Part shown: positions 4,818 through 16,910 of the stretch, one piece after another
How the letters are laid out: each line of letters starts with the position of its first letter
Numbering within the stretch: position 1 is the stretch's first letter
DNA from: a virus
Direction: 5' to 3' (one strand)
Length of the DNA: 22,876 bases
IMG/VR virus record: IMGVR_UViG_3300009184_000230
Span: 1-22,876 of that record
Made by a program: the position numbers and the translations under genes
The notes under the pieces: model-generated
Told to the model about the DNA's origin: nothing
The model's database searches: none
What the model saw: only the letters and a program-made list of their open reading frames with translations

Positions 4818-4873
4818 TATATAGAGGAAACACCGAACCACAAAATTCATAAATGAAAGATGGTGAAATAAAT

Positions 4874-5632
4874 ATGGCATATACAAGAGGCTCAAACGCT
4901 AACATTATCGTTGGTGCAGCAGCACTATTCGTAACAGTAGACACTAACCAGGGTCTAACTAAGGCAAGCATCCCTACGTTCATTGATGGTGAATCTTACA
5001 AAGAAACACTATCACTTCGTTATTCAGATGTTTTCCGTAACGTTGGATACACAAACAACGGTGTTGAAATCTCATTTGCTCCAGACTTTGGAGAGGTTAT
5101 GGTAGACCAACTACTAGATACCGCTAAACTGTTCAAGCAGGGAATGAAGGTTACACTAAAGACAACTCTAGCCGAAGCAACCTTGGAGAACCTTCTCCTA
5201 GCAATTGCTGGCAAGACATCTGACTTTGGTACACTCAACCTAGGTACTCAGACAGAAACTAATAGACTAGTTACTCTGGGTAATCCAACAACAGTAGTAA
5301 CTGCTGCAACAAACGCAGGAGTTACAACTTCTGGAACAGATACCAACAAATTCCTAGATATTACTTCAGGCGACCTTGGGGACTACCCAATCGAACGTGG
5401 TATTATCGCAGTAGGTCCAGGAACTGGAAACCTATCAGGAGTTGGTAACGCAGGTACATCAGACACACTAAGCAACCAAGCAGAGCGTGTTTACATTGCA
5501 TACCGTGCTATCTCAATCGATAGTGTAACAGTATCAGCAAAGCGTGATTCAGCAACATCCTTCGAAGTATCGTTCCGTCTGCTTCCAGACAACAACGGTG
5601 CTTACGGACGTATCGTTGACCGTTCATACTAA
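4874..5632 (+). CDS. Major tail tube protein
   Basis: 252 residues from ATG 4874. An in-frame ATG at 4853 would add seven residues but has no Shine-Dalgarno sequence; GGTGA at 4862-4866 sits 7 bases before 4874, so I prefer the shorter form. The protein begins MAYTRGSNANIIVGAAALFV and is beta-rich with a central loop-like Gly/Thr/Asn-rich insert (residues ~125-195). The C-terminal section runs SVTVSAKRDSATSFEVSFRL and then DNNGAYGRIVDRSY. A middle helix with FGEVMVDQLLDTAKLFKQG fits the tube protein fold. Size, position between tail terminator and chaperones, its own promoter and terminator, and a capsid-like preference for C-ending codons all indicate the abundant tube subunit that stacks around the tape measure. 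Confidence 0.85.
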   Translation: MAYTRGSNANIIVGAAALFVTVDTNQGLTKASIPTFIDGESYKETLSLRYSDVFRNVGYTNNGVEISFAPDFGEVMVDQLLDTAKLFKQGMKVTLKTTLAEATLENLLLAIAGKTSDFGTLNLGTQTETNRLVTLGNPTTVVTAATNAGVTTSGTDTNKFLDITSGDLGDYPIERGIIAVGPGTGNLSGVGNAGTSDTLSNQAERVYIAYRAISIDSVTVSAKRDSATSFEVSFRLLPDNNGAYGRIVDRSY

Positions 5633-5657: not shown

Positions 5658-5693
5658 GAGACTGCCCTAGGGATTCCTGGGGCAGTTTCTTTT
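5658..5693 (+). terminator. Rho-independent terminator after the tail tube gene
   Basis: ACTGCCC (5661-5667) pairs with GGGCAGT (5680-5686). The stem continues inward through a T-G wobble plus A-T, G-C, G-C pairs to a GATT loop (5672-5675), and the outer GAG/TTC can extend it. The T-rich tail runs 5686-5693 and leads directly into the next promoter. Confidence 0.9.
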
Positions 5694-5701
5694 GCTATAA
5701 T
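5693..5701 (+). promoter_or_regulatory. Extended -10 promoter (TGC-TATAAT) giving a likely leaderless transcript
   Basis: TATAAT at 5696-5701 with TGC in front. The ATG of the next gene begins at 5708, only six bases after the hexamer, which is where transcription normally starts. The mRNA would therefore begin at or next to the A of the start codon. There is no Shine-Dalgarno sequence; the terminator hairpin occupies the space where a -35 would be. Confidence 0.75.
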
Positions 5702-5707
5702 AGAGAT

Positions 5708-6418
5708 ATGCCTACAACAATATACGAAACACATGAACTAGAATTAATAGATGGAACTATCTTAGAAATGTCTCCTCTTAAGATTAAATATTTAAAACAA
5801 TTTATGGATAAGTTTGATTTAATTAAGGAATGCAAAACCGATGAAGAGTCTATTTCTGTTCTTGTGGATTGTGTAAGAATATCAATGAAGCAATTTCATC
5901 CAGTGTTAAAAACTATTGAAGATGTAGAAGATAGTATAGACCTTCCAACAATATATAAAATTATTGATATATGTGCTGGAGTAAAGATGAATAAAGAAGC
6001 CCAAGACAAAAATGATGCATCAGAAATAAAACCAGCAAAGAAAGAAAATAGTTGGGATAGTCTGGATTTGGTAAAATTAGAGTCCGAAATTTTTGTGCTC
6101 GGTGCTTGGAAAAACTTTGACGAATTAGAGTCAAGCATATCTATGCCAGAACTAATGGCTATTCTTGAATCAATAAGAGAACTAGACTATAATGAAAAAA
6201 AGTTTCTTGCTGCGATGCAAGGAGTAGACCTAGATGAATCAAAGAATAAGAATGAACCAGACCCTTGGGAGGCAATGAAAGCCAGGGTAGCGGCACAAGT
6301 ATCTGGTATTGGCAATGGAGACCCTAATGACGTTACATCGTTGCAAGGACAAAAAGCACAACAGTATGGCTTCGGTATCGGCATGGGCCTTGAGTACGAA
6401 GTTATTACCAAAGACTAG
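5708..6418 (+). CDS. Tail assembly chaperone, long form
   Basis: 236 residues. The N-terminal ~97 residues are paralogous to the next gene, sharing M-TTI-ET, E-L-DGT, PLKI, FM-KF, MKQ, DLPT-YKI and G-K, which also confirms the start codon despite the absence of an RBS. After a charged linker (residues ~98-115) comes a C-terminal domain with LGAWKNFDELESSISMPELM, FLAAMQGVDLDE, DPWEAMKARVAAQVSG, GDPNDVTSLQGQKA and GFGIGMGLEYE. Such a pair of domains corresponds to the long product (gpGT-like) of siphovirus tail chaperone genes, which binds the tape measure and recruits tube protein and is not part of the finished tail. Here it is encoded in one unbroken frame. I see no canonical slippery heptamer at the domain boundary. 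The gene is probably translated from a leaderless message. Confidence 0.8.
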   Translation: MPTTIYETHELELIDGTILEMSPLKIKYLKQFMDKFDLIKECKTDEESISVLVDCVRISMKQFHPVLKTIEDVEDSIDLPTIYKIIDICAGVKMNKEAQDKNDASEIKPAKKENSWDSLDLVKLESEIFVLGAWKNFDELESSISMPELMAILESIRELDYNEKKFLAAMQGVDLDESKNKNEPDPWEAMKARVAAQVSGIGNGDPNDVTSLQGQKAQQYGFGIGMGLEYEVITKD

Positions 6419-6425
6419 TTGTTTA

Positions 6426-6434
6426 TGTTATAAT
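6426..6434 (+). promoter_or_regulatory. Extended -10 promoter (TGT-TATAAT) for the short chaperone
   Basis: TATAAT at 6429-6434 with TGT in front, in the 41-base gap between the two chaperone genes. AAGGAGG (6449-6455) lies 4 bases before ATG 6460. The sequence ATGTTATAATTAT closely matches the tube promoter ATGCTATAATTAT. Confidence 0.7.
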
Positions 6435-6459
6435 TATTAAGAAACCATAAGGAGGATTC

Positions 6460-6783
6460 ATGTCTACAACTATTAATGAAACTAAAACAGTAGAACTATT
6501 GGACGGAACAAAAATTAGCGTTCGTCCACTAAAAATCTCTCTTCTTCGCCCTTTTATGACAAAGTTTGAGGGTATCGCAGAAGTAGCAGATAACAACGAG
6601 AAGTCAATGACTCTTCTCATGGAGTGTGTACAAATTGCTATGAAGCAGTACGCTCCAGAACATGCCACAGACCTAAAGGCTCTAGAAGAACTTCTAGACC
6701 TTCCTACAGTATACAAGATTGTCGAAGAGGCATCTGGTATTAAACTTAGCGAGGCTTCGCTAATGGGTGGTCTAATCGGCTAA
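6460..6783 (+). CDS. Tail assembly chaperone, short form (paralogue of the upstream gene)
   Basis: 107 residues with a strong RBS. Nearly the whole protein aligns with residues 1-97 of the preceding gene; by eye roughly 40 of 97 aligned positions are identical, with two single-residue gaps. It ends shortly after the shared domain (KLSEASLMGGLIG) and lacks the C-terminal domain, so it corresponds to the short product (gpG-like) of a tail chaperone gene. In lambda-like phages short and long forms come from one gene by ribosomal frameshifting and the short form is in excess. Here they appear to be two genes, and the short one has the stronger translation signals. It is followed by an 17-base gap and the tape measure gene, as expected for this family. 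Confidence 0.8.
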   Translation: MSTTINETKTVELLDGTKISVRPLKISLLRPFMTKFEGIAEVADNNEKSMTLLMECVQIAMKQYAPEHATDLKALEELLDLPTVYKIVEEASGIKLSEASLMGGLIG

Positions 6784-6800: not shown

Positions 6801-9800
6801 ATGGCTGATATCGAATCAAATATAAAAGTTAATATAGATACGTCAGATGCTCTGTCGCAACTAAAACTTTTACAACAGCAGATATCAGCCTTCCAACAGG
6901 CAATGAAAAATGCTGGAGCACAAAATGCTTCAGCCGCTGTTCAAATGCAGCAAAACTTGATGACATCCATCAATGCTACTGGCAAGTTTTCTGCAAATAT
7001 ACAAACAATTAAAACAAGTGCGGAATCTTTTACAGAGTCCCTCGAAAAGAACAAACTATCTATAGGTCAATACTTTAGGTATGCTGGTGGTGCATCTAAA
7101 ACTTTTGGAAAACTGTTCAAATCTGAATTTGAAACTATTCAGCAAGTAGCAGTAGACAGAGTAAAGACTATACAGACCCAGTATATTAAACTTGGTCGTG
7201 ATGCTTCTGGAGCAATGAAAGCAATTGCTGTTAGACCACTTGCTCTCGATATGGATAATTTGGGAACAAAAACCCAAATAGCGGCACAGAAACAGCAACT
7301 CTTTAACCAGTTGATGAAGCAAGGCTCTACACAACTTCTAAACTTTGGTAAGAACACTCAGTGGGCTGGTCGCCAACTTATGGTTGGTTTTACTATTCCA
7401 CTTACATTAATGGGTCAGGCAGCAGCCCAAGCCTATATGAAGATTGAAGCAGCATCTCTAAAGTTTAGGCGTGTTTATGGAGACATGAATACAACAACAG
7501 AAGAAACCAATAAAATGGTTAAATCTGTTCAAGCACTTGCAAATGAGTTTACAAAATATGGTATTGCTGTTGCAGATACCATGGACATGGCTGCTCAAGC
7601 AGCGGCTATGGGTAAAACAGGCACTGACCTTATGCAACAGGTTGCTCAGGCATCAAAACTTTCGGTACTTGGTCAAGTAGAGCAACAGCAAGCATTAGAA
7701 ACAACCATTAGCCTTACAAACGCTTTTGGTATATCTACAGATGAACTAGCAAAAAGCGTAGACTTCCTTAACGCAGTAGAAAACCAAACTGTTGTTAGCA
7801 TCGAAGACCTTACAATTGCTATTCCAAAAGCAGCCCCAGTAGTTAAACAACTTGGTGGAGATGTCGAAGACCTAACATTCTTCCTGACAGCAATGAAGGA
7901 AGGTGGCATTAACGCATCTGAAGGTGCTAACGCACTTAAGTCTGGTCTTGCATCTATGATTAATCCAACTAAAAAGGCTTCGGACTTTTTGGCACAATTT
8001 GGAGTCAACATTAAAGCAATTGTTGAGGGAAACAAGGGAGACATTAAGGGAACAGTTGTTGATTTTGCTAAGGCACTGGACACATTAGACCCACTAAATC
8101 GTGCTCGTGCAATTGAACAGATGTTTGGTAAATTCCAATTCTCTCGTCTATCTACACTATTCAAGAACGTAATTGATGAGGGTAGCCAAGCAGCCACGGT
8201 AGCAGGTCTTGCAAATCAAACAGCAGAAGAACTTGCAGTATTGTCAGAACGAGAAATGAGTAAAATCTCAGACTCTCCTATGTTTAAATTTCAAAAATCT
8301 ATTCAAGATATGCAAACCAAACTTGCTCCAGTTGGAGAAGCATTCCTAAAGGCTGTAACTCCAATTATTGAATTTGTGACAAAGATTTTAGATGGCTTCA
8401 ACAATCTTAGTGAAGGAACAAAATCTTTTGTTTCTATATTAGTTTTGGCTGTTGCTGGTATTGGTCCTGCATTGCTAATGACATTTGGTCTTATTGCTAA
8501 CGGTGTGGCAAACATTATGAAACTCTTTACTAATATGAAGGCTTTCATAAATAAAACTACAAAACCATCCGATGTTCTTGGAGAACAAACTTCTTACATG
8601 AACACAGAGCAGTTAAAGAGTGCTGCTATTGCTGCATCTCTAGACCAGGCTCACGCAAAACTTCGTCAAACATTCACTTCCGAGGCTGCTGCAGTTCAAC
8701 AACTGACAGACGCTTATAGAAATGCTGTACAGGCTCAACAGGCTTATTCTGGTATTCCAGGTATTCCAACAGGAAATCCAAATGCTACACCTAGAAAATA
8801 TGCTAACGGTGTATCTATGGTTCCAGGTCCTTCGGGTGCAGGTGACATTGTTCCAGCACTACTATCTCCAGGTGAAGCAGTTATTCCTGCAAGGTCTGCT
8901 AAAAAGTATGCTCCAGTAATTCGTGGCATGATTGCTGGAAACCTTCCAGGATTTGAGGATGGCACTCCAGGTGCAGGTATGCGTCAAAGCATGATTGGTC
9001 CAATGACCGAAAAACAAATTGAAGGTCTTGCAAGAACAGGAAAAACTCTTAAAGAGATTAGCGATGAAGTTTATGCAGGTCCTTATGGTCAAACTCCACC
9101 AACAAATTATGGCACACAAATCACTCCAAGTGCTGGACATTCTTTCCCTGCATTTGGTGTTGCTGGAGTATATGAAAAACCAGACGGAACAAAAGTATTC
9201 GTTAAGCCACAAATGGACTTAGTTTCTGCAATGGCAGAAATTAGAGGAACAACTATTGCTCGTGACGTACATGGACTTGTAGCACCAAAGCAATCGCTTC
9301 GTGTAATGATGGACCCAACAGACCCAGAAGACAAGAGAAAATTCTTAGTTCTTGAGTCAGCATTGGACGAGAGACTTGCTAATGTTCCAACAGAATTTAC
9401 TAAAGACCAATACTTTAAACAACTTGTTGCGTCTCTTCTTCGTGGAGATAAAGACCTTGGTGTTGGAAACCTTGGAGGAAACGTCCTTGCTGACGTTGGT
9501 CCTGCTGGGGTATTCCAAAGAGCATCTGGTAAACGTGCTCTTGGTAGCCAAATTAACTCTATGGAAGAACAAGCAATCATTAATCTTCTTGGCGTAAAGG
9601 GTGGTGCTAAGAGATTCTTTGCTGAGGCAACATCAGATATTGCTAAGAGTATGACCCCTGCTGAATATGATGCAGCAATCAAGGCAGAGATTCAGGCAGT
9701 TGCTCCAAGACTTCAGGCTACAATTGCTGGATTTGGAAATCTTAACCCAGAAGAAAAGGCAGCATACATGGCTATGCAGCAAAGACTTCAGGCAGGTATG

Positions 9801-12800
9801 GGGGTTGACTGGGCTAAGTATCAGGTCATGCATTCGAAAGTGCCTACAAAGAAACTTGCTGAAGGTGGATTTGTTGGCATTGAAAATAGTCAGTCATTTG
9901 CTCAAAGTTTGATGAGCATGTCTAGTGATGAGATAAAGAAACAACTTAATATCAATGACACTCACTTAGTTACTCCAATAGATTTAACCAAGAATCCACA
10001 AGTTCTTAAACAGATTACAGATATACTTCCAGGAGTAACTAAAGAAGAACTTCGTGGTTTTGAACCAGTATCTAATTTGACAGCCCAACTTCCAGCAAAC
10101 ATGAATCAGAAGATGAAGACTAGTGGTTATCCTTCATCAACATTTAGTTCAATTTGGAATGGTTTTGTTGGCAAACTATCGAAGAGTGCAACTATTGCTG
10201 GAATTGATTTGCCAAGTTCTCAAATAATTGAAGATGAATTGGGTACACAAATTGCTGCTGCTGGCGGAAATATAACTGATGGAACAATTAATGACATCAT
10301 TGGAAATGTTCTTGGAAAATCTTCAAAAGTAACTGACATAAATGAAAGTAAACAAAAACTATATAGTTTAGCACTTAAGGTTGCACAACTTAGAAGCAAA
10401 CCAAAACAATTAAGCCAATCAGGTAATGATTCAATTCATTCAATTGTTCTTAGAATGATAAGGGATGGCTCTGCACAATTTAATGATAACGGAACAAGTA
10501 TTGTTAGAACTATTGGACAAGGAAATGTTACAAGATTTGGAACCTGGGAATTTGAAGGTATTGGAACTGGCAAAGAAGAAGGAACAATAGAACAAAAAGA
10601 AATACGCAGAAGAGCACAAGAAGCAGCATATGGTTCTACTGGCTGGGCATCACTAAGAAATTGGAATGCCCCTATGCCAACAGTAAATCGAGAACTTGTT
10701 AAACCTAAAGACTGGGCGGAAGTAACTAATCCTGCAACCTGGAATAGAATGACTAAAGAACAGCAGAGACAATATCTTTCTACAATACAAGGAACTAAAC
10801 CAACAACTCTTGGATTTAGAAAGCAAGACTATGAACAAGGTTTTGGAGATAACAAGGGTCCTGCATCAGGATGGACATACGATTCTAGTAAACTAAAGGC
10901 TGGAATTAAATGGAGAAATTCCGAACAAGCCATGCAAATGGGATACAACGAAATGGCTGCAAATGGAATTATCCCATCAGCAGGACAAGCATTCTTTAAT
11001 AAGTTAGCCCTAGGTAAAGAACCTGTAAGAATGGCTGAGGGTGGCATTGTTCCAGGTGGAATGGGTAAGCCTAAAGCATCCGTATTTGACGTAGACGATA
11101 CACTGCTTGACCTAGCATCGTTCATGCCAGCACACCAAGAAAGAAATGCAAAACTACCTAAAGAACAAAGACTTAATTGGTGGGAAGAAGTAGCCAAAGA
11201 CCCTAAAGGTATTCCTGCTGCTATTCAAAGACTAAAAGATGCTCAGATGCGTGGTAATAAGATTCTTCTTATGACTGCAAGACCAAAGACTTATGATGCT
11301 GTTACATTGGATACCCTGCAAAAACTGGGTATTGATACTAAGGGTGTCAAACTAATTTCTAGAGAAAATAAAGATTATCGTAAACCAGAACAGATGAAGT
11401 ATGACAAAACTTCTAAGTATATGCAATGGTATGACATTGAAGAGTTCTATGACGATATGGCTAAGACTCGTGGTGCTGTAAGTCTTCTAGGTATTAATAC
11501 TATTAATCCTCTTAAACTTGCTAAGGGTGGTGTTGTTCCTGGATATGCTAAGGGTACTCCAAGAGTTTTAGATACTATCGAGCAAAAGTTCCCAGGAATG
11601 TTTACTCAACTTCCTAAATCAAGGATGATGCAGTATAGTGAAGGTGCAACTAAGCCAGAGGCAAATAAAAAAGTTTTCACATCTTCAAGATTAAAGAGTT
11701 TTAAGTTTGAAGATTGGAACAGAACATATGACTTAGACGAACTAGCACAAATCGCTACAATGATAACTCAGGGTGAGTTTAGTGGTATAGGAAAGTCTGT
11801 ATATAGTAAAAAAACTGGTAAATATAAGAGAATTGGTGTTCCTACCTTCGATGATTTGCTTGTAAATGGAAAACCTATTTTGCAAGAACTTCCAGGGTAT
11901 CAAAAATATTCTTTAGGATATGAAGGAGAAGAAGTATACGCTGGAATTGCTAGAAATAAAATAGCAATGCTACAGTCTCTTCAAGACTGGATTTATCAAG
12001 ATGACTGGGGTAAAGAAGCAAGTGAATTTACTGTAAATGGAATACCTGCAAAAACTTTCTTTAAAGGATTATCTTTAAACCAATACAGAGTTCCAGGACA
12101 AAAAACAAAATCAAAGCCATACTTTTTTGCTGACGGTGTGTTCTCAGTTCCAGGACCAAAGGGTGCTGGCGATGTAGTTCCTGCTATGCTATCTCCAGGT
12201 GAGGCTGTTATTCCTGCCAAGCAAGCAGCACAGCACCGTCCAATGATTCAGCAAATGATTGCTGGTAATCTTCCAGGATATATTAAAGGAAGTCCAGGGG
12301 TAGGAATAAATTCAGTATTCAGTTCTGAGGTAGCAATGGAATCTGGAAAGCCACTAAATGTTAACATTGTAAAAGATGAAACAGCAAAGTCAGATAAACC
12401 ATTAGAAATACTTCAACCAAATTCAAAAGTGACAATTCTAACTCGTGAGCAAATCGAAGAACAGATGTCTATTGAAGATGAGGTATATAGACAACTTTTG
12501 GAAAAAGAAAAAGAATTAAAATTAAAGCACGTTCTTACTGAAGAGGAAAGAAAGTTGCTAGAGTCAAATAAGCAAATTATGCTTAAAAAAGAAGAAGCGT
12601 TTAAACTTCAAAAGAATGTGACAGAAAAAGAAAAAAGAGGTTTCTTTACAAGAAATGCTACAACTGGAAAAGTTCAGGGTGCGATGTATGGTCTTTCTGC
12701 AGCAGCAGGTCTTGCATCAACTGTGCCAGGTGCTGTAGGGGAAAGTGCACAGCAGATGCTTCCAGTTATTGGTGCTGCTACCGCTGCAATGTCTGTTATT

Positions 12801-15800
12801 CCTGGCTATGCTGGTATGATTGTTGGAGCAGGTGCAGCATTGGTTACAGCCTACATGCAGGTACAAGACAAGTTAAATAAGATTAGAGATGAGGCATTGG
12901 CTCTAGGAACTGCTATGGGTTCATCTACAAAGTCTATTGATAAATTTGCGGAATTTGCTAAAACTGTTACAGGTAGCCAAGCAATGGATAAGCGTAGAGA
13001 AACCAGTGCAGGAAGTTTCTTTAATGTTGTTCAAGGTAAAACAACATTTGGTGAATCATACATGAAGAGCGATGCTGGAAAAGAATTAGTCAAATCTGTT
13101 GGTGCAGCAATTAAGGGTGGCGGTTTAGACCAAGCAAAGGCAATGATTGTAAATCAACTTGGTACTGCAATAGCCAGTGGTGCTTTGTCTCCTGCTCAGG
13201 CTAGAAGTATTGCTTCAAATCTAGGTGCTCAACTAGGAGATATGTCTTTAGGTATCGAAGTGGCAGGAAAAATAACTGACCTCGTAGGTCCAAAAGGTGA
13301 AGACTTAAAGAAAGAACCTTTAGAAATAAGAATGCGTCTTGTTGCTGAGTCTATGGAACAGTTTAAAAAACAGGCAGAAATTTCTAACGCTAATGTTAAT
13401 GATACTGCAAAGAATGCAGGAACATCTGGTGCAGGTATTGGTCTAGGTATGGGTGCTGGTGCAGCGGCTGGCGGTATAGCCCTAGGAGCAGCATCCTTAA
13501 TGGGTGGCGTTGCTTCATCTTCTGCAATAGTTGCAGGTCTTGCAACAGCAGGAAGTGCAGTGCCAGTTATTGGAACTATTATTGGAGCACTTGTAGGATT
13601 CTCAATTGCTGCAGTTCAACTACAAGGAGATATTGCAAAAAATGCTGGTTACCTACAAGCAAGTTTAGGAAGTGCTTTATCAGTTCAACAGCAAATGGTT
13701 GACTCACTTACAGTAGACTATGAAAAAAGAATACAAGCAGCAAAGGCTGCTGGAGATACAGCAGAAGCAACTAGACTACAAAATCAATACCTTGCAGACC
13801 AAGCAGAGTTGCTACAGTTTAATAAAGAACAAACTCAGGAAATGTATAGCATATTGGAGTCTCAAGGGACTGGACTTGGATTTATGCTTAACGCACAAAT
13901 TGCAAATCTCGATACAGCAAGAGAAGGATTAAAGAAAGCATTTGAAGGCAGTGGTCAGGAAGTACAGGCTAAACTTGCACAAGAACAAATAGATTCTATG
14001 GCTGGTTCTGCTACCCAAAAGACTATGCTTATGTCAGCAGTTGCTCAAAAGCAAATAGGATTAAATCAAATTGGCGTTGCAAAAACAGCATTCGGTGCAG
14101 ACCAAGCAGGAGCAGACACATTACAGACATTGATGGAAAATAGTCCAACAGAATTAAATAGAACTCTTGGGTTGGCAGGAAATATGGGAGCGGTAGAGCA
14201 AAAGAAGTTTGTTTTAGACATGAGTCTTAAAGACCCTATTGAAGCAAAGGTGATGAATGATGCTGTAGAACTGGCACAAAAAACAACTGGCGTGTTCTTT
14301 GGAGAAAAGAAAACAGCAGAAGCAATTATGAAATTTGCTGTAGAAAATCCAGAAAAAATGTTAGAGTTCCAGCAAAACGTAGCAGAACTAAAAGATGTTG
14401 ATGGAGCAAAATTTGATATTACGGTTGCACAAAAAATTCTTGGTCCAGACTTGGCAAAGGCTTTGGGAGAAAAGAGCGTAGGAGCATACTTTAAGAAATA
14501 CAACAAGCAAAACAAGGTTGTATTCCTATCCGAGTTCCAACAAGTAATGACAATGCTTCAAGAGGGTGACAAAGACATGATTGATTCATACAATGCATGG
14601 AATGCGTCAAACGGAATGAAAAAGACATATGCCGATTATGCTGCTTGGCAGTCCGATAGAACAGTTACTACTCAAGGAGTAGATAATACAAAGGCACCAG
14701 GAGAAGACGGTGGAACAGGAGAAAAGGCTGGACCACAGGCATCAATTCTTGACCAGTTTGTTCAAATGGCGAGAGAGACTTCTAACTTCCAGCAAAAACT
14801 AACTACAGGATGGGATGCATCTCTTGCTGCTTTAAAGAGGTATACAATTACTTCTATTAACTTGCTTGCTGGTTGGGCGGTACGTCTAAAGCAACAAGGT
14901 GTAAGTGCAAATATGATAGACGTATTTATGGGTGCTACAGAAGAAGAGCAAGATAAAATTATTAATAAAAGAACTGGAGCACTCCTACCAGGGGCACTAG
15001 ACTTACTTAGAAAACTTCAGATTATTAAAGATAAAAAAGAATTTGGATTGTCTTATGTTCTTGCAAGTCCAACAGAAAGACTAGCAAAAGATAATGGTCT
15101 ATATCAGGCAGGTCTTGATGTCATTGCTAATAAAGAAAAAAAGATTAATGAAAAATATGATAAACGTATTAAAGCACTTGACCAGATTGGTAAGATTCAA
15201 GAAAAGAATAACCAAAGACAGCAAGATACTTTAACTATTGCAGATGCTTTGTCTAAGGGTGATATTGCTGCAGCCGCTAGAGCAGCACTAACCGCTAAAC
15301 AGAATAGTCAAAGATTAGCATTGGAAGATGCAAAAGAGAGCACAGAACTTGCTCGTAAAACTGAACTTGAGGCTATTACAGTTAAGATTTTAGGAGAAAC
15401 ACAAACACGCTCAGACCTAGAGGCAATAATTGCAACAAATACTGAAAAAATTGCAGCAAATAAACTTGTAGAAATGAATCGTCAAATCACAATTGGTCGA
15501 AATGCTGTTATTGCTGCTGAACAAAGTGCTATTCTTTTAGCAAATTCAACACTTATTTCAAAACTTCCTGGAGCAAACGGTGGTGGCTCTAGTACTGGTA
15601 GTGGAAAAGGCAATGGTGGAAAAGGCAATGGTGGAAAAGGTGATGGTGGAAAAGGTGATGGTGGAAAAGGTGATAAGGGTGGAAATAATGCCAATGATAC
15701 CGATTCAAAACCTACTGGGGTAGTTGGAAATATTGCAAGTTCTGTACAGGGTAAAGCATTTACAGCGGCAATTAAAGGTGCTCAGGATGTTACTCCTGGT

Positions 15801-16910
15801 GCTTTAAAGGCTGCTCAAGATTATGCTACTGCTAAGAAAAATGCAGGGGCATCAATGAGCGATGCTGCTGCAGAAAAGAAATTTGGTGGAAAAAATACTC
15901 CAGAATTTAAAAAATGGAAAGCAAATCAAATAAAACTTGCTAAAGCATTAACAGCAGCACAGGATTATGGTCTTGTCGATAGTTATGGTAACGTTCTTAC
16001 AGCAGACCAAGTTACTAATGCAACTACTTATCAAAAAAATACAATGCTTTCTTCAAAAAGTGGTCAAGCAGATGCAGCAGAATCCTTAAAGGGCATCCCA
16101 GCAGAAATTGCTTCTAGAGCAAAATTGATTAAAAATTCAAATAAAGATTTTGCAGCAGACAAAACAAAACTTGATGAAATGAAGAAAACATTTGAAAAAG
16201 CAGGTGGTATATTGTATATGCTTCCAGGATACTATCAAACATGGTTAAATACCTCAGATGCTTTAAGACCTACAACTCCTTTTGGAAAACTTATTGCAAA
16301 AGGTGCTAAACCAGAAGAACTTATAAATCAAGCAACAAAAATGGCAACGAAGTTTGGTGAAATAGATAATTATAGAAAAGAACTTAGGACTGCTGGGTAC
16401 ACAGAGAGTATGCTTTTCCAGGCTAAACTATTTGATAGTACTGATGGTCGTGATGGACAAACTTTAAAACAAAGTTCTGATTTTGCATCTGGTCAAATGT
16501 TTAATCCACACAAACCCTATACAGGAACAAATATTGGATATGGTAAAAACCAAATACTTCCAGATGCAGAAAACATGCTTAGGTTTGCTAATCAATATTA
16601 TGCTATGGGTGGTATGGTTTATGCAAACAAAGGGCTTAAGGTTGCAGCAAGCAAGTATGCTCTTGGAACAGACACTATTCCAGCCATGCTAACTGCTGGA
16701 GAATTTGTTATGAGGAAATCAGCGGTAGATAGAATTGGCTCAAGAACACTAACCAAAATGAATGATGGAACATCTTCAGGAGATTCAGTGTATAATTATA
16801 GTATTACATTAAACGTCAATTCATCATCTGACTCTAACGACATTGCAGATGCAGTCCTTAGACAGATTAAGAGAATTGATTCACAAAGAATTAGGAGCAG
16901 TGCTATATAA
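6801..16910 (+). CDS. Giant tape measure protein with embedded enzyme-like modules
   Basis: 3,369 residues in one frame; weak RBS GGTG at 6790-6793. Tape measures set tail length and line the tube lumen. Seen in order: N-terminal coiled coil (1-120); TP901-type core (~146-500); hydrophobic segment (~540-577); linker copy A (668-726); insert of about 1,050 residues (727-1776) with four modules; linker copy B (1777-1835); charged coiled coil (~1865-1930); hydrophobic segments (~1961-2018 and ~2212-2275); long helical stretches; a GKGNG/GKGDG repeat (2935-2959); a C-terminal GG-V linker with IPAMLTAGEF (3268-3323); and a C-terminus with SITLNV and DAVLRQIKRIDSQRIR, as in actinophage tape measures. 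It is long for the family, which is usually about 700-2,000 residues. At roughly 1.5 angstrom per residue the whole would span about 500 nm; without the insert about 350 nm. I see no lysozyme or peptidase motif. Its stop overlaps the next start by one base. Confidence 0.93.
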   Translation: MADIESNIKVNIDTSDALSQLKLLQQQISAFQQAMKNAGAQNASAAVQMQQNLMTSINATGKFSANIQTIKTSAESFTESLEKNKLSIGQYFRYAGGASKTFGKLFKSEFETIQQVAVDRVKTIQTQYIKLGRDASGAMKAIAVRPLALDMDNLGTKTQIAAQKQQLFNQLMKQGSTQLLNFGKNTQWAGRQLMVGFTIPLTLMGQAAAQAYMKIEAASLKFRRVYGDMNTTTEETNKMVKSVQALANEFTKYGIAVADTMDMAAQAAAMGKTGTDLMQQVAQASKLSVLGQVEQQQALETTISLTNAFGISTDELAKSVDFLNAVENQTVVSIEDLTIAIPKAAPVVKQLGGDVEDLTFFLTAMKEGGINASEGANALKSGLASMINPTKKASDFLAQFGVNIKAIVEGNKGDIKGTVVDFAKALDTLDPLNRARAIEQMFGKFQFSRLSTLFKNVIDEGSQAATVAGLANQTAEELAVLSEREMSKISDSPMFKFQKSIQDMQTKLAPVGEAFLKAVTPIIEFVTKILDGFNNLSEGTKSFVSILVLAVAGIGPALLMTFGLIANGVANIMKLFTNMKAFINKTTKPSDVLGEQTSYMNTEQLKSAAIAASLDQAHAKLRQTFTSEAAAVQQLTDAYRNAVQAQQAYSGIPGIPTGNPNATPRKYANGVSMVPGPSGAGDIVPALLSPGEAVIPARSAKKYAPVIRGMIAGNLPGFEDGTPGAGMRQSMIGPMTEKQIEGLARTGKTLKEISDEVYAGPYGQTPPTNYGTQITPSAGHSFPAFGVAGVYEKPDGTKVFVKPQMDLVSAMAEIRGTTIARDVHGLVAPKQSLRVMMDPTDPEDKRKFLVLESALDERLANVPTEFTKDQYFKQLVASLLRGDKDLGVGNLGGNVLADVGPAGVFQRASGKRALGSQINSMEEQAIINLLGVKGGAKRFFAEATSDIAKSMTPAEYDAAIKAEIQAVAPRLQATIAGFGNLNPEEKAAYMAMQQRLQAGMGVDWAKYQVMHSKVPTKKLAEGGFVGIENSQSFAQSLMSMSSDEIKKQLNINDTHLVTPIDLTKNPQVLKQITDILPGVTKEELRGFEPVSNLTAQLPANMNQKMKTSGYPSSTFSSIWNGFVGKLSKSATIAGIDLPSSQIIEDELGTQIAAAGGNITDGTINDIIGNVLGKSSKVTDINESKQKLYSLALKVAQLRSKPKQLSQSGNDSIHSIVLRMIRDGSAQFNDNGTSIVRTIGQGNVTRFGTWEFEGIGTGKEEGTIEQKEIRRRAQEAAYGSTGWASLRNWNAPMPTVNRELVKPKDWAEVTNPATWNRMTKEQQRQYLSTIQGTKPTTLGFRKQDYEQGFGDNKGPASGWTYDSSKLKAGIKWRNSEQAMQMGYNEMAANGIIPSAGQAFFNKLALGKEPVRMAEGGIVPGGMGKPKASVFDVDDTLLDLASFMPAHQERNAKLPKEQRLNWWEEVAKDPKGIPAAIQRLKDAQMRGNKILLMTARPKTYDAVTLDTLQKLGIDTKGVKLISRENKDYRKPEQMKYDKTSKYMQWYDIEEFYDDMAKTRGAVSLLGINTINPLKLAKGGVVPGYAKGTPRVLDTIEQKFPGMFTQLPKSRMMQYSEGATKPEANKKVFTSSRLKSFKFEDWNRTYDLDELAQIATMITQGEFSGIGKSVYSKKTGKYKRIGVPTFDDLLVNGKPILQELPGYQKYSLGYEGEEVYAGIARNKIAMLQSLQDWIYQDDWGKEASEFTVNGIPAKTFFKGLSLNQYRVPGQKTKSKPYFFADGVFSVPGPKGAGDVVPAMLSPGEAVIPAKQAAQHRPMIQQMIAGNLPGYIKGSPGVGINSVFSSEVAMESGKPLNVNIVKDETAKSDKPLEILQPNSKVTILTREQIEEQMSIEDEVYRQLLEKEKELKLKHVLTEEERKLLESNKQIMLKKEEAFKLQKNVTEKEKRGFFTRNATTGKVQGAMYGLSAAAGLASTVPGAVGESAQQMLPVIGAATAAMSVIPGYAGMIVGAGAALVTAYMQVQDKLNKIRDEALALGTAMGSSTKSIDKFAEFAKTVTGSQAMDKRRETSAGSFFNVVQGKTTFGESYMKSDAGKELVKSVGAAIKGGGLDQAKAMIVNQLGTAIASGALSPAQARSIASNLGAQLGDMSLGIEVAGKITDLVGPKGEDLKKEPLEIRMRLVAESMEQFKKQAEISNANVNDTAKNAGTSGAGIGLGMGAGAAAGGIALGAASLMGGVASSSAIVAGLATAGSAVPVIGTIIGALVGFSIAAVQLQGDIAKNAGYLQASLGSALSVQQQMVDSLTVDYEKRIQAAKAAGDTAEATRLQNQYLADQAELLQFNKEQTQEMYSILESQGTGLGFMLNAQIANLDTAREGLKKAFEGSGQEVQAKLAQEQIDSMAGSATQKTMLMSAVAQKQIGLNQIGVAKTAFGADQAGADTLQTLMENSPTELNRTLGLAGNMGAVEQKKFVLDMSLKDPIEAKVMNDAVELAQKTTGVFFGEKKTAEAIMKFAVENPEKMLEFQQNVAELKDVDGAKFDITVAQKILGPDLAKALGEKSVGAYFKKYNKQNKVVFLSEFQQVMTMLQEGDKDMIDSYNAWNASNGMKKTYADYAAWQSDRTVTTQGVDNTKAPGEDGGTGEKAGPQASILDQFVQMARETSNFQQKLTTGWDASLAALKRYTITSINLLAGWAVRLKQQGVSANMIDVFMGATEEEQDKIINKRTGALLPGALDLLRKLQIIKDKKEFGLSYVLASPTERLAKDNGLYQAGLDVIANKEKKINEKYDKRIKALDQIGKIQEKNNQRQQDTLTIADALSKGDIAAAARAALTAKQNSQRLALEDAKESTELARKTELEAITVKILGETQTRSDLEAIIATNTEKIAANKLVEMNRQITIGRNAVIAAEQSAILLANSTLISKLPGANGGGSSTGSGKGNGGKGNGGKGDGGKGDGGKGDKGGNNANDTDSKPTGVVGNIASSVQGKAFTAAIKGAQDVTPGALKAAQDYATAKKNAGASMSDAAAEKKFGGKNTPEFKKWKANQIKLAKALTAAQDYGLVDSYGNVLTADQVTNATTYQKNTMLSSKSGQADAAESLKGIPAEIASRAKLIKNSNKDFAADKTKLDEMKKTFEKAGGILYMLPGYYQTWLNTSDALRPTTPFGKLIAKGAKPEELINQATKMATKFGEIDNYRKELRTAGYTESMLFQAKLFDSTDGRDGQTLKQSSDFASGQMFNPHKPYTGTNIGYGKNQILPDAENMLRFANQYYAMGGMVYANKGLKVAASKYALGTDTIPAMLTAGEFVMRKSAVDRIGSRTLTKMNDGTSSGDSVYNYSITLNVNSSSDSNDIADAVLRQIKRIDSQRIRSSAI
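7236..8300 (+). other. TP901-type tape measure core domain
   Basis: Residues ~146-500 carry the recognisable core of phage minor-tail/tape measure proteins: WAGRQLMVGFTIPLTLMGQA, AAQAAAMGKTGTDLMQQVAQ, TNAFGISTDELAKSVDFLNA, then FFLTAMKEGGINASEGANAL and RARAIEQMFGKFQFSRLSTL. This identifies the gene product regardless of the unusual insert downstream. Confidence 0.85.
8802..8978 (+). repeat. Linker repeat copy A in the tape measure
   Basis: Residues 668-726: ANGVSMVPGPSGAGDIVPAL, then LSPGEAVIPA, later IAGNLPG and TPGAG. Aligns without gaps to residues 1777-1835, 39 of 59 positions identical by my count. The G-GD-VPA-LSPGEAVIPA core is a known tape measure linker type (usually seen once, near the C-terminus). 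Confidence 0.85.
9123..9836 (+). other. Kinase-like domain embedded in the tape measure (module 1)
   Basis: Residues ~775-1012. A beta-hairpin with GVYEKPDGTKVFVKP places a lysine (K802) on a strand, followed 11 residues on by E813 in a helix (SAMAEIRGTTIARDV). A hinge-like FLVLESALDE follows (848-857), then a loop with R-GDKDLGVGNLGGNVLAD (D883, D885, N890, N894) and D898. Lys, Glu, Asp, Asn and Asp in this order and spacing match the ATP-binding and catalytic residues of kinase-fold enzymes of the PI3/4-kinase or HipA-like type, where the catalytic loop reads GD-x-x-x-x-x-N. Inference only; substrate unknown. The glycine-rich loop is weak, so it might be inactive or a different fold. Confidence 0.4.
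9879..11024 (+). other. Unrecognised module 2 in the tape measure insert
   Basis: Residues ~1027-1408, bounded by the short linkers AEGGFVG (1020-1026) and AEGGIVPGG (1412-1420). The first half is helical with many Asn, Ile and Ser; the second half is rich in Trp, Arg, Gln and Gly (GWASLRNWN, DWAEVTNPATWNRM, GWTYDSSKLKAGIKWRN). It does not resemble tape-measure sequence and I recognise no family. Codons are more AT-rich than in module 1. Confidence 0.5.
11073..11510 (+). other. HAD-superfamily phosphatase-like domain embedded in the tape measure (module 3)
   Basis: Residues ~1425-1570. Motif I is FDVDDTLLD with nucleophile D1430 and acid/base D1432. Motif II is KILLMTARP with T1492. Lysines K1533, K1536 and K1539 are candidates for motif III, and motif IV is EEFYDD with D1551 and D1552. 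All residues needed for HAD chemistry are in the right order within about 145 residues. A helix carrying IPAAIQRLKDAQMRGNKI precedes motif II, as in the polynucleotide 3'-phosphatase of T4 Pnkp and acid-phosphatase-like HADs. Expected activity is phosphomonoester hydrolysis with Mg2+; the substrate is unknown. Bounded by GG-V linkers on both sides. Confidence 0.8.
11562..12128 (+). other. Unrecognised module 4 in the tape measure insert
   Basis: Residues ~1588-1776, between linker AKGGVVPGYAKGTP (1574-1587) and linker copy B. Mixed alpha/beta, rich in Tyr, Lys, Phe and Trp (LKSFKFEDWNRTYDLDELAQ; LPGYQKYSLGYEGEEVYAG; SLQDWIYQDDWGKEASEF). No family recognised and no catalytic motif seen. Confidence 0.5.
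12129..12305 (+). repeat. Linker repeat copy B in the tape measure
   Basis: Residues 1777-1835: ADGVFSVPGPKGAGDVVPAM, then LSPGEAVIPA, IAGNLPG and SPGVG. Second copy of the 59-residue linker at 668-726. It closes the roughly 1,050-residue insert, after which coiled-coil and hydrophobic tape-measure-like sequence resumes. Confidence 0.85.
12681..12854 (+). other. Hydrophobic segment in the tape measure
   Basis: Residues ~1961-2018 are almost free of charges and rich in Ala, Gly, Val, Ile and Met (GLSAAAGLASTVPGA; GYAGMIVGAGAALVTAYM). Possible membrane-inserting hairpin used during DNA ejection, as known for other tape measures. Confidence 0.55.
13440..13620 (+). other. Second Gly/Ala-rich hydrophobic segment in the tape measure
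   Basis: Residues ~2214-2274: GLGMGAGAAAGGIALGAASL, then VAGLATAGSAVPVIGTIIGA and LVGFSIAAV. Long enough for two membrane spans. Confidence 0.55.
15603..15677 (+). repeat. 15-bp in-frame tandem repeat, five copies
   Basis: Units GGAAAAGGCAATGGT (two copies), GGAAAAGGTGATGGT (two copies) and a final variant ending GATAAG encode GKGNG, GKGNG, GKGDG, GKGDG, GKGDK (residues 2935-2959). It lies in a Gly/Ser/Asn-rich hinge between helical regions and is likely a flexible, slippage-prone spacer. Confidence 0.95.
16602..16769 (+). other. C-terminal tape measure linker related to the internal repeats
   Basis: Residues 3268-3323: AMGGMVYANKG, GTDTIPAMLTAGEFVMRKSA, then RIGSRTLTKMNDG. This is the usual C-terminal tape measure motif and a distant relative of linker copies A and B (D-x-x-PA-L-x-x-GE). 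Confidence 0.75.

Follow-up and report, generated by a model that had tools for sequence, protein, structure and literature searches.

At the tail assembly chaperone locus of the phage clade described here, comparative sequence evidence makes it very probable that a tandem gene duplication replaced programmed −1 ribosomal frameshifting. In most long-tailed phages, the two sizes of this chaperone arise from one gene via a programmed ribosome slip, and Xu, Hendrix and Duda reportedly described in 2004 how siphophage tail assembly chaperones are made by −1 frameshifting. The window analyzed, which is an entire IMG/VR virus record of 22,876 bases, contains two chaperone genes. The upstream copy would supply the long form, with its N and C domains in one frame, and the downstream copy the short form, consisting of the N domain alone. 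Duplication in place of frameshifting had been proposed in the initial annotation from the window itself, and the proposal now draws support from the paralogy of the two genes, the occurrence of two gene states among relatives, the loss of the slippery site, and phylogenetic trees.

The chaperone pair lies between a major-tail-protein-like gene (4853..5632), assigned from matches to Ig-domain / major tail protein PHROGs (phrog_2175, 9e-28; phrog_885, 4.3e-5), and the tape measure gene (6801..16910), all on the plus strand. The long gene (5708..6418), a TAC-NC or gpGT-like gene, encodes 236 residues from an ATG. Its N domain (5708..6010) is followed by a linker (6011..6052), which occupies the place of the ancestral frameshift site and has no conserved slippery heptamer, and by a C domain (6053..6415) homologous to the −1 frame domain of frameshifting relatives. 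The short gene (6460..6783), a TAC-N or gpG-like gene, also starts with ATG and encodes 107 residues. This gene order is widely maintained: in 123 of 126 unique loci, the long gene has a tail-protein-like ORF that ends at most 400 nt before it, and a long open frame begins at most 120 nt past the short gene in all 118 loci with enough sequence. The tape measure protein, the presumed client of both chaperones, comprises 3,369 residues and is recognized by TIGR01760 (E=1.8e-32) and PF10145 (7.1e-28). Its residues 1419–1542 (window 11055–11426) match a HAD acid phosphatase domain above cut-off (PF03767, E=1.7e-15) and are flanked by two copies of a PGPxGAGDxVPAxLSPGEAVIPA motif. Residues ~750–1000 of the same protein (window about 9000–9900) have, by eye, the look of a kinase-type fold (VFVKPQ ... 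LRGDKDLGVGNLGGN); Pfam gave no match to this region at E<=0.01.

Paralogy of the two chaperone genes is evident from direct comparison of their products. BLASTP aligns the long and short proteins from residue 1 of both, with 43 of 100 positions identical and 73 of 100 similar (E=1e-26). The earlier alignment of the short gene with the N terminus of the long gene is thus borne out at 43% identity, with the shared region ending near residue 98, and the TTIxET start and the PLKI, MKQ, and DLPTxYKI motifs singled out at that time are all present in the BLASTP alignment. Both proteins match PHROG 10504 over residues 1–101/102 (5.5e-21, 1.6e-18), the long-gene match covering residues 1–101 of its N domain, as do 56 of 56 members of set A3. 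PHROG 10474 is matched by the long protein only (residues 134–205, 1.2e-16), in the same frame as the N domain, just as had been claimed for the C-terminal domain. The window pair consequently has the form of a chaperone pair, with a shared N domain and a C domain added in the long form. Neither chaperone gene has a match in NCBIfam, and Pfam returns only weak matches to them, below cut-offs. The model of the short protein (pLDDT 76) has the HK97 chaperone 2ob9 at the top Foldseek rank but with a non-significant E=1.3, and its VIA Z of 4.4 against 2ob9 is tied with that for another chain (5ir0) at 4.5. In BFVD, a fold match with E=3.9e-6 is to an entry that bears the name tail assembly chaperone. 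The long-protein model is weak (pLDDT 64, with low confidence at residues 95–115) and has no match in the PDB at E<=0.001. A profile of set A2, a mixture of short genes and single-gene N proteins, retrieved nothing relevant from PDB sequences.

Relatives of the pair fall into two gene states. A tblastn search of annotated phages with the long protein identifies 132 records, from 127 Streptomyces phages and 5 Rhodococcus phages, and the short protein alone matches 127 annotated phage records, all from Streptomyces. IMG/VR relatives were drawn from five scans, the first three of which represent the best 80 of 161, at least 582, and 584 relatives. Loci from four of these scans, together with the window and the Streptomyces and Rhodococcus records, make up a set of 326. 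Among the matches listed, 193 of the 326 encode N and C as one uninterrupted frame with a separate N gene downstream of it, 124 encode N and then C in another frame without a second N, and nine are in neither state. Truncation or threshold explains eight of these exceptions, six being cut by the sequence end and two being Rhodococcus loci with an N domain below threshold. In the ninth, L154, a frame change close to the contig end (L154:1-647) interrupts the long gene, through either assembly error or recent mutation; it is the sole broken long gene among the matches listed. Removal of identical sequences leaves 126 complete pair loci (62 duplicate and 4 incomplete loci dropped) and 78 frameshift loci (46 duplicates and 1 without a start dropped). 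Among the matches listed, every one of the 126 unique complete IMG/VR loci of the clade pairs a long gene, whose N and C domains share a frame, with a separate short gene behind it. Outside the clade, the 78 unique relatives listed all place their C domain in the −1 frame. The fifth scan contributes 31 pair loci, 39 frameshift loci, and 4 partial loci, some on contigs already seen, and is excluded from the promoter and codon counts given below. Transitional loci, with both genes and a slippery site, are absent among the matches listed in the five IMG/VR scans, although rarer forms may have escaped the first three.

The single-gene relatives with a slippery site that a replacement of frameshifting would imply are indeed found. 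Of the 78 frameshift loci, 76 have an X XXY YYZ heptamer in frame within the stretch open in both frames, and its sequence is CCCAAAC or CCCAAAT in nearly every case. GAC and CCA are the sole codons at the first two site positions in 70 of 70 aligned loci, and synonyms for both site amino acids are in use elsewhere. The −1 product continues through a Gly/Ser-rich linker to SWDELDL, the counterpart of which in the window long gene is NSWDSLDL. Four Streptomyces phages examined have one N ORF with the C domain in another frame, often labeled tail assembly chaperone, and the chaperone of Rhodococcus phages NiceHouse and Francesca is annotated as joined (frameshift). The window resembles the Stanwilliamsviridae Streptomyces phages Coruscant, EGole, Gilson, and Wakanda in its homologous N and C domains and its gene order, and the Rhodococcus phages NiceHouse, Trina, and Francesca in its homologous C domain and gene order, with the N domain also recognized in Francesca. 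It differs from all of these in that each of them has one locus, in which C is in another frame, and lacks a second gene. The overlap in Coruscant and EGole (L001 and L002), where C is in the −1 frame, contains no X XXY YYZ heptamer and reads GAC CCG GAA at the end of the N ORF, indicating either an unusual slip site or a different mechanism. Assigned starts also vary among the 78 unique frameshift loci (TTG in 61, ATG in 12, and GTG in 5); ATG starts both genes in all 126 pair loci. The pair clade is known mostly from environmental metagenomes, presumably of fresh water to judge from the look of their identifiers. A host search by relatives in genome contigs yielded 150 pattern matches, none of them confirmed, and the affinity of the nearest phages to actinobacteria gives no more than a hint as to host.

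Trees provide insight into the origin of the second gene. In a tree of 137 N domains, those of long genes (LN, 51), short genes (S, 51), and frameshift proteins (FS, 35) each fall on one side of a branch, with SH-aLRT values of 97/92/98. Rooting on a Rhodococcus phage protein places FS at the base and makes LN and S sisters. The LN group is fast evolving, with a subtree length of 22.4 vs 8.7 and a patristic distance greater than that of S in 283 of 300 locus pairs. Several nearer frameshift loci (L362–L364, L366, and L368) have a slippery GGGAAAC and an N domain that is strikingly short-gene-like; the closest single-gene relatives, L362 and L368, thus retain a slippery site. In a C-domain tree, from which 9 of 49 frameshift loci tried were omitted for want of a recognizable C domain, L362/L368 form the sister group of the long-gene C domains, all 31 of them (98/91). 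The simplest history is a single tandem duplication that postdates the separation from L362-like phages, following which the short gene would have retained the ancestral sequence and the long-gene N domain would have changed fast. The second copy could instead have been acquired horizontally, as a chaperone gene of some related phage, with the same two-gene outcome, and an enlarged N-domain tree (thinned to 29 pair loci) does group L362/L368 with S, apart from LN and not outside LN+S (98/93). A constraint placing LN+S in one clade with L362/L368 outside is, however, not rejected (p-AU 0.73, in a test that left out the four longest frameshift rows), and the constrained tree is 18.5 log units better than the free quick tree. 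The fast LN sequences may be drawn to the base of the tree, and the C domains, as noted, set L362/L368 outside all long genes. Transfer is unlikely, and duplication in place is the history preferred here.

Both products of this duplication appear to be in use. From 1,500 sampled locus pairs, 217 (S), 129 (C domain of the long gene, LC), and 345 (LN) gave usable dS, and the corresponding medians of dN/dS are 0.14, 0.18, and 0.35. The 77 pairs that yielded all three estimates give 0.115 for S, 0.115 for LC, and 0.195 for LN. These ratios point to purifying selection on both chaperone genes, strong in the short gene and extending to LN. A silent second gene would have undone the proposal; its near-consensus promoter, its Shine-Dalgarno sequence, and its median dN/dS of 0.14 suggest instead that it is translated. 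The faster change of LN relative to the short gene (0.35 vs 0.14, together with the patristic distances above) might be taken to mean that the short protein alone acts as the tape-measure chaperone and that the long protein has assumed a different role, such that the two no longer form a gpG/gpGT-like pair. The C domain is nonetheless conserved and corresponds by homology to the −1 domain that frameshifting relatives encode, N and C are kept together in 126 of 126 loci, and LN remains under purifying selection, so that a separate role for the long protein is improbable.

Replacement of frameshifting, rather than mere supplementation, is favored by the sequence of the linker. Should the long gene still yield a short product by slippage there, the short gene would be a supplement only. 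In the window, the C domain is in frame 0 and not in the −1 frame behind a heptamer. Across the clade, X XXY YYZ heptamers are found in the linkers of 9 of 117 loci, compared with 18.1 ± 3.4 expected from synonymous reshuffling (1 of 300 reshuffles was as low), in a count that ends at the linker end and drops nine loci without a recognizable one. A wider count over codons 85–125, which begins in the N domain and reaches into the C domain, gives 24 heptamer matches in 126 loci; when the heptamer count is cut at codon 125, 13 of 126 are obtained vs 23.1 expected. A check of the linker for slippage, foreseen in the initial annotation, likewise revealed no position-conserved slippery site in the 22 long-gene linkers listed. 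In the short genes, CCCAAA is absent (0/126) and an in-frame heptamer occurs in the tail of one of 126. With heptamers depleted and no conserved site, a conserved residual frameshift in the long gene was rejected. The weaker −1 motif A AAG does occur in the linkers of 47 of 117 loci, and 115 of 117 linkers contain a −1 stop, features that might allow some low-level slippage; both counts are nevertheless at the reshuffle expectation (46.6 and 115.0). Slippage in the linker as the main source of the short product is accordingly very doubtful. An assembly or sequencing indel that fused or split frames, of the kind suggested by the frame break near the contig end in L154, is scarcely conceivable for the clade as a whole, given that 126 distinct sequences with different linkers share the arrangement and that the second gene is a diverged paralogue, which an indel could not create.

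If duplication has replaced slippage, the ratio of the two products would have to be set elsewhere, and the two genes differ conspicuously in their start signals. The short gene is preceded by a predicted extended −10 promoter (TGTTATAAT, 6426..6434), 25 nt 5′ of its ATG, and by the Shine-Dalgarno sequence AAGGAGG, which is read directly from the sequence at 6449..6455. The short gene is preceded by an exact TATAAT, mostly 24–28 nt before the ATG, in 123 of 126 loci, vs 11.4 in shuffles, and by a Shine-Dalgarno match of at least 5 nt in 98% of the 126 loci, vs 4% in shuffles. Frameshift genes have a like module, with TATAAT 22–28 nt before the start in 68 of 77 and a Shine-Dalgarno match of at least 5 nt in 71 of 77, suggesting that the short gene keeps the ancestral start module of a TATAAT and a leader with AAGGAGG. 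A predicted extended −10 promoter (TGCTATAAT, 5693..5701) also precedes the long gene, 6 nt 5′ of its ATG, and a Shine-Dalgarno match of at least 5 nt is absent there in 126 of 126 loci. TGNTANNNT is found 3–16 nt before the long-gene ATG in 121 of 126 loci (3% of shuffles), with a spacing of 5–9 nt in 113 of the 121; the 5 loci of the 126 that lack it read GCGGTATACT at the −10 place, and the −10 is exact in 27 of 126. From this spacing we infer leaderless initiation of the long gene, for which the window promoter is a candidate. A short leader may remain on the mRNA, since the spacing is 8–15 nt in 38 of the 121 loci. Leaderless starts, in which +1 is the first base of the start codon, are predicted for actinophages in a passage of PMC4351075. 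The contrast drawn earlier between leaderless and strong-RBS starts is upheld throughout the set of 126 unique loci, once it is extended to nearly leaderless ones.

Terminators also distinguish the two genes. An intrinsic terminator-like hairpin of 14 pairs (8 GC) with a T-rich tail lies between the tail-protein gene and the long gene at 5658..5689; it is the first-listed terminator in a scan of the window and has the most pairs. Of the 126 loci, 124 have such a hairpin before the long gene (1 after shuffling) and 2 before the short gene; one also precedes 61 of 77 frameshift genes. A sigma-70 scan of the window returned 50 promoter-like sites, not above shuffles, and TGNTATAAT has 4 matches there vs 1.75 expected, with 9 of 100 shuffles as high; what supports the promoters is therefore their conservation across loci rather than the window by itself. 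Another strong terminator hairpin follows the capsid-like gene at 1523–1573, with TGGTATAAT immediately next to it, and repeats the terminator-then-promoter layout seen before the long chaperone gene.

Codon usage bears on the expression of the two genes, the fraction of two-fold codons ending in C being taken as a sign of high expression. In the window, this fraction is 0.70 for the capsid-like gene, 0.68 for the tail-protein-like gene, 0.50 for the short gene, and 0.26 for the long gene (0.15 in its N domain). Medians over the 126 loci are 0.36 for the short gene and 0.21 for the long gene. The short gene has the higher value in 105 loci, and the other 21 are without that difference.

These features are compatible with a model in which the short:long ratio is set by initiation and transcription, with dosage governed by separate starts and promoters. 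The long form would be made at a low level from a terminator-shielded gene with a weaker −10 and a leaderless or nearly leaderless mRNA. The short form would be made at a high level from a near-consensus promoter, with a leader and a Shine-Dalgarno sequence, and additionally by read-through from the long-gene promoter, which is expected because terminator-like hairpins are not found between the two genes (2/126). Gene order together with read-through would make short-gene mRNA at least as abundant as that of the long gene. By analogy with lambda gpG, the short protein may coat the tape measure; the minor long protein, like gpGT, may also recruit the tail tube protein via its C domain. A bolder version, which is conceivable although we hold it tentatively, is that a promoter-and-initiation device has taken over from recoding and that leaderless initiation sets the minor-to-major ratio formerly set by a slippery heptamer. 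The long gene would then have been shut off behind a terminator, have lost both its leader and its Shine-Dalgarno sequence, and have been left with a degraded −10. In the same proposal, LN, freed from making the bulk product, could have become a specialized tail-initiation subunit that caps or seeds the short-subunit polymer.

The tandem pair resembles lambda gpG/gpGT, where a short N form and a longer N+C form likewise have the N domain in common and their coding region again separates the major tail protein gene from that of the tape measure; a −1 slip is moreover in use among relatives of the window family. The window differs from lambda, in which the ratio is given as about 30 to 1 in part of PMC5009743, in having two genes, two promoters, and two initiation modes, with no frameshift. 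Conservation of the chaperone frameshift elsewhere, along with the names TAC-N and TAC-NC, appears in a section of PMC12846349. Some T4-like phages are mentioned in PMC10274946, in a passage citing Vladimirov et al. 2022, as having one short and one longer fused chaperone gene and no frameshift. The window resembles these in its separate short gene and long fusion gene. The T4 pair, which we take to be genes 26 and 51, is divergently transcribed, and gp51 and gp26 share 20% identity (E=2e-6); the window pair is instead tandem, on one strand, and 43% alike. Its lineage is further distinguished from T4 by kinship to actinobacterial siphophages and by a frameshifting sister state that is still extant. 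Some subclusters of Microbacterium cluster EA are described in a portion of PMC7302621 as having two chaperone ORFs expressed separately without evident frameshift; that portion makes no mention of a duplicated N domain, which may set the present pair apart. No description of a siphophage two-gene chaperone of this kind was found in the open-licence literature. The principle of two-gene chaperones is already known from the T4-like precedent, to which this case adds a tandem layout, a slippery site whose loss can be traced, and start signals that contrast between the two genes.

Few phage recoding events are as widely conserved as the gpG/gpGT frameshift, and its conservation has been read as evidence for the need of a fixed product ratio. 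For annotators, the pair means that a frameshift should not be forced where two chaperone genes stand in tandem. A clade that replaced the frameshift, alongside sister lineages that kept it, makes the states before and after directly comparable. The question of whether the slip itself is needed, or the ratio only, thereby becomes testable.
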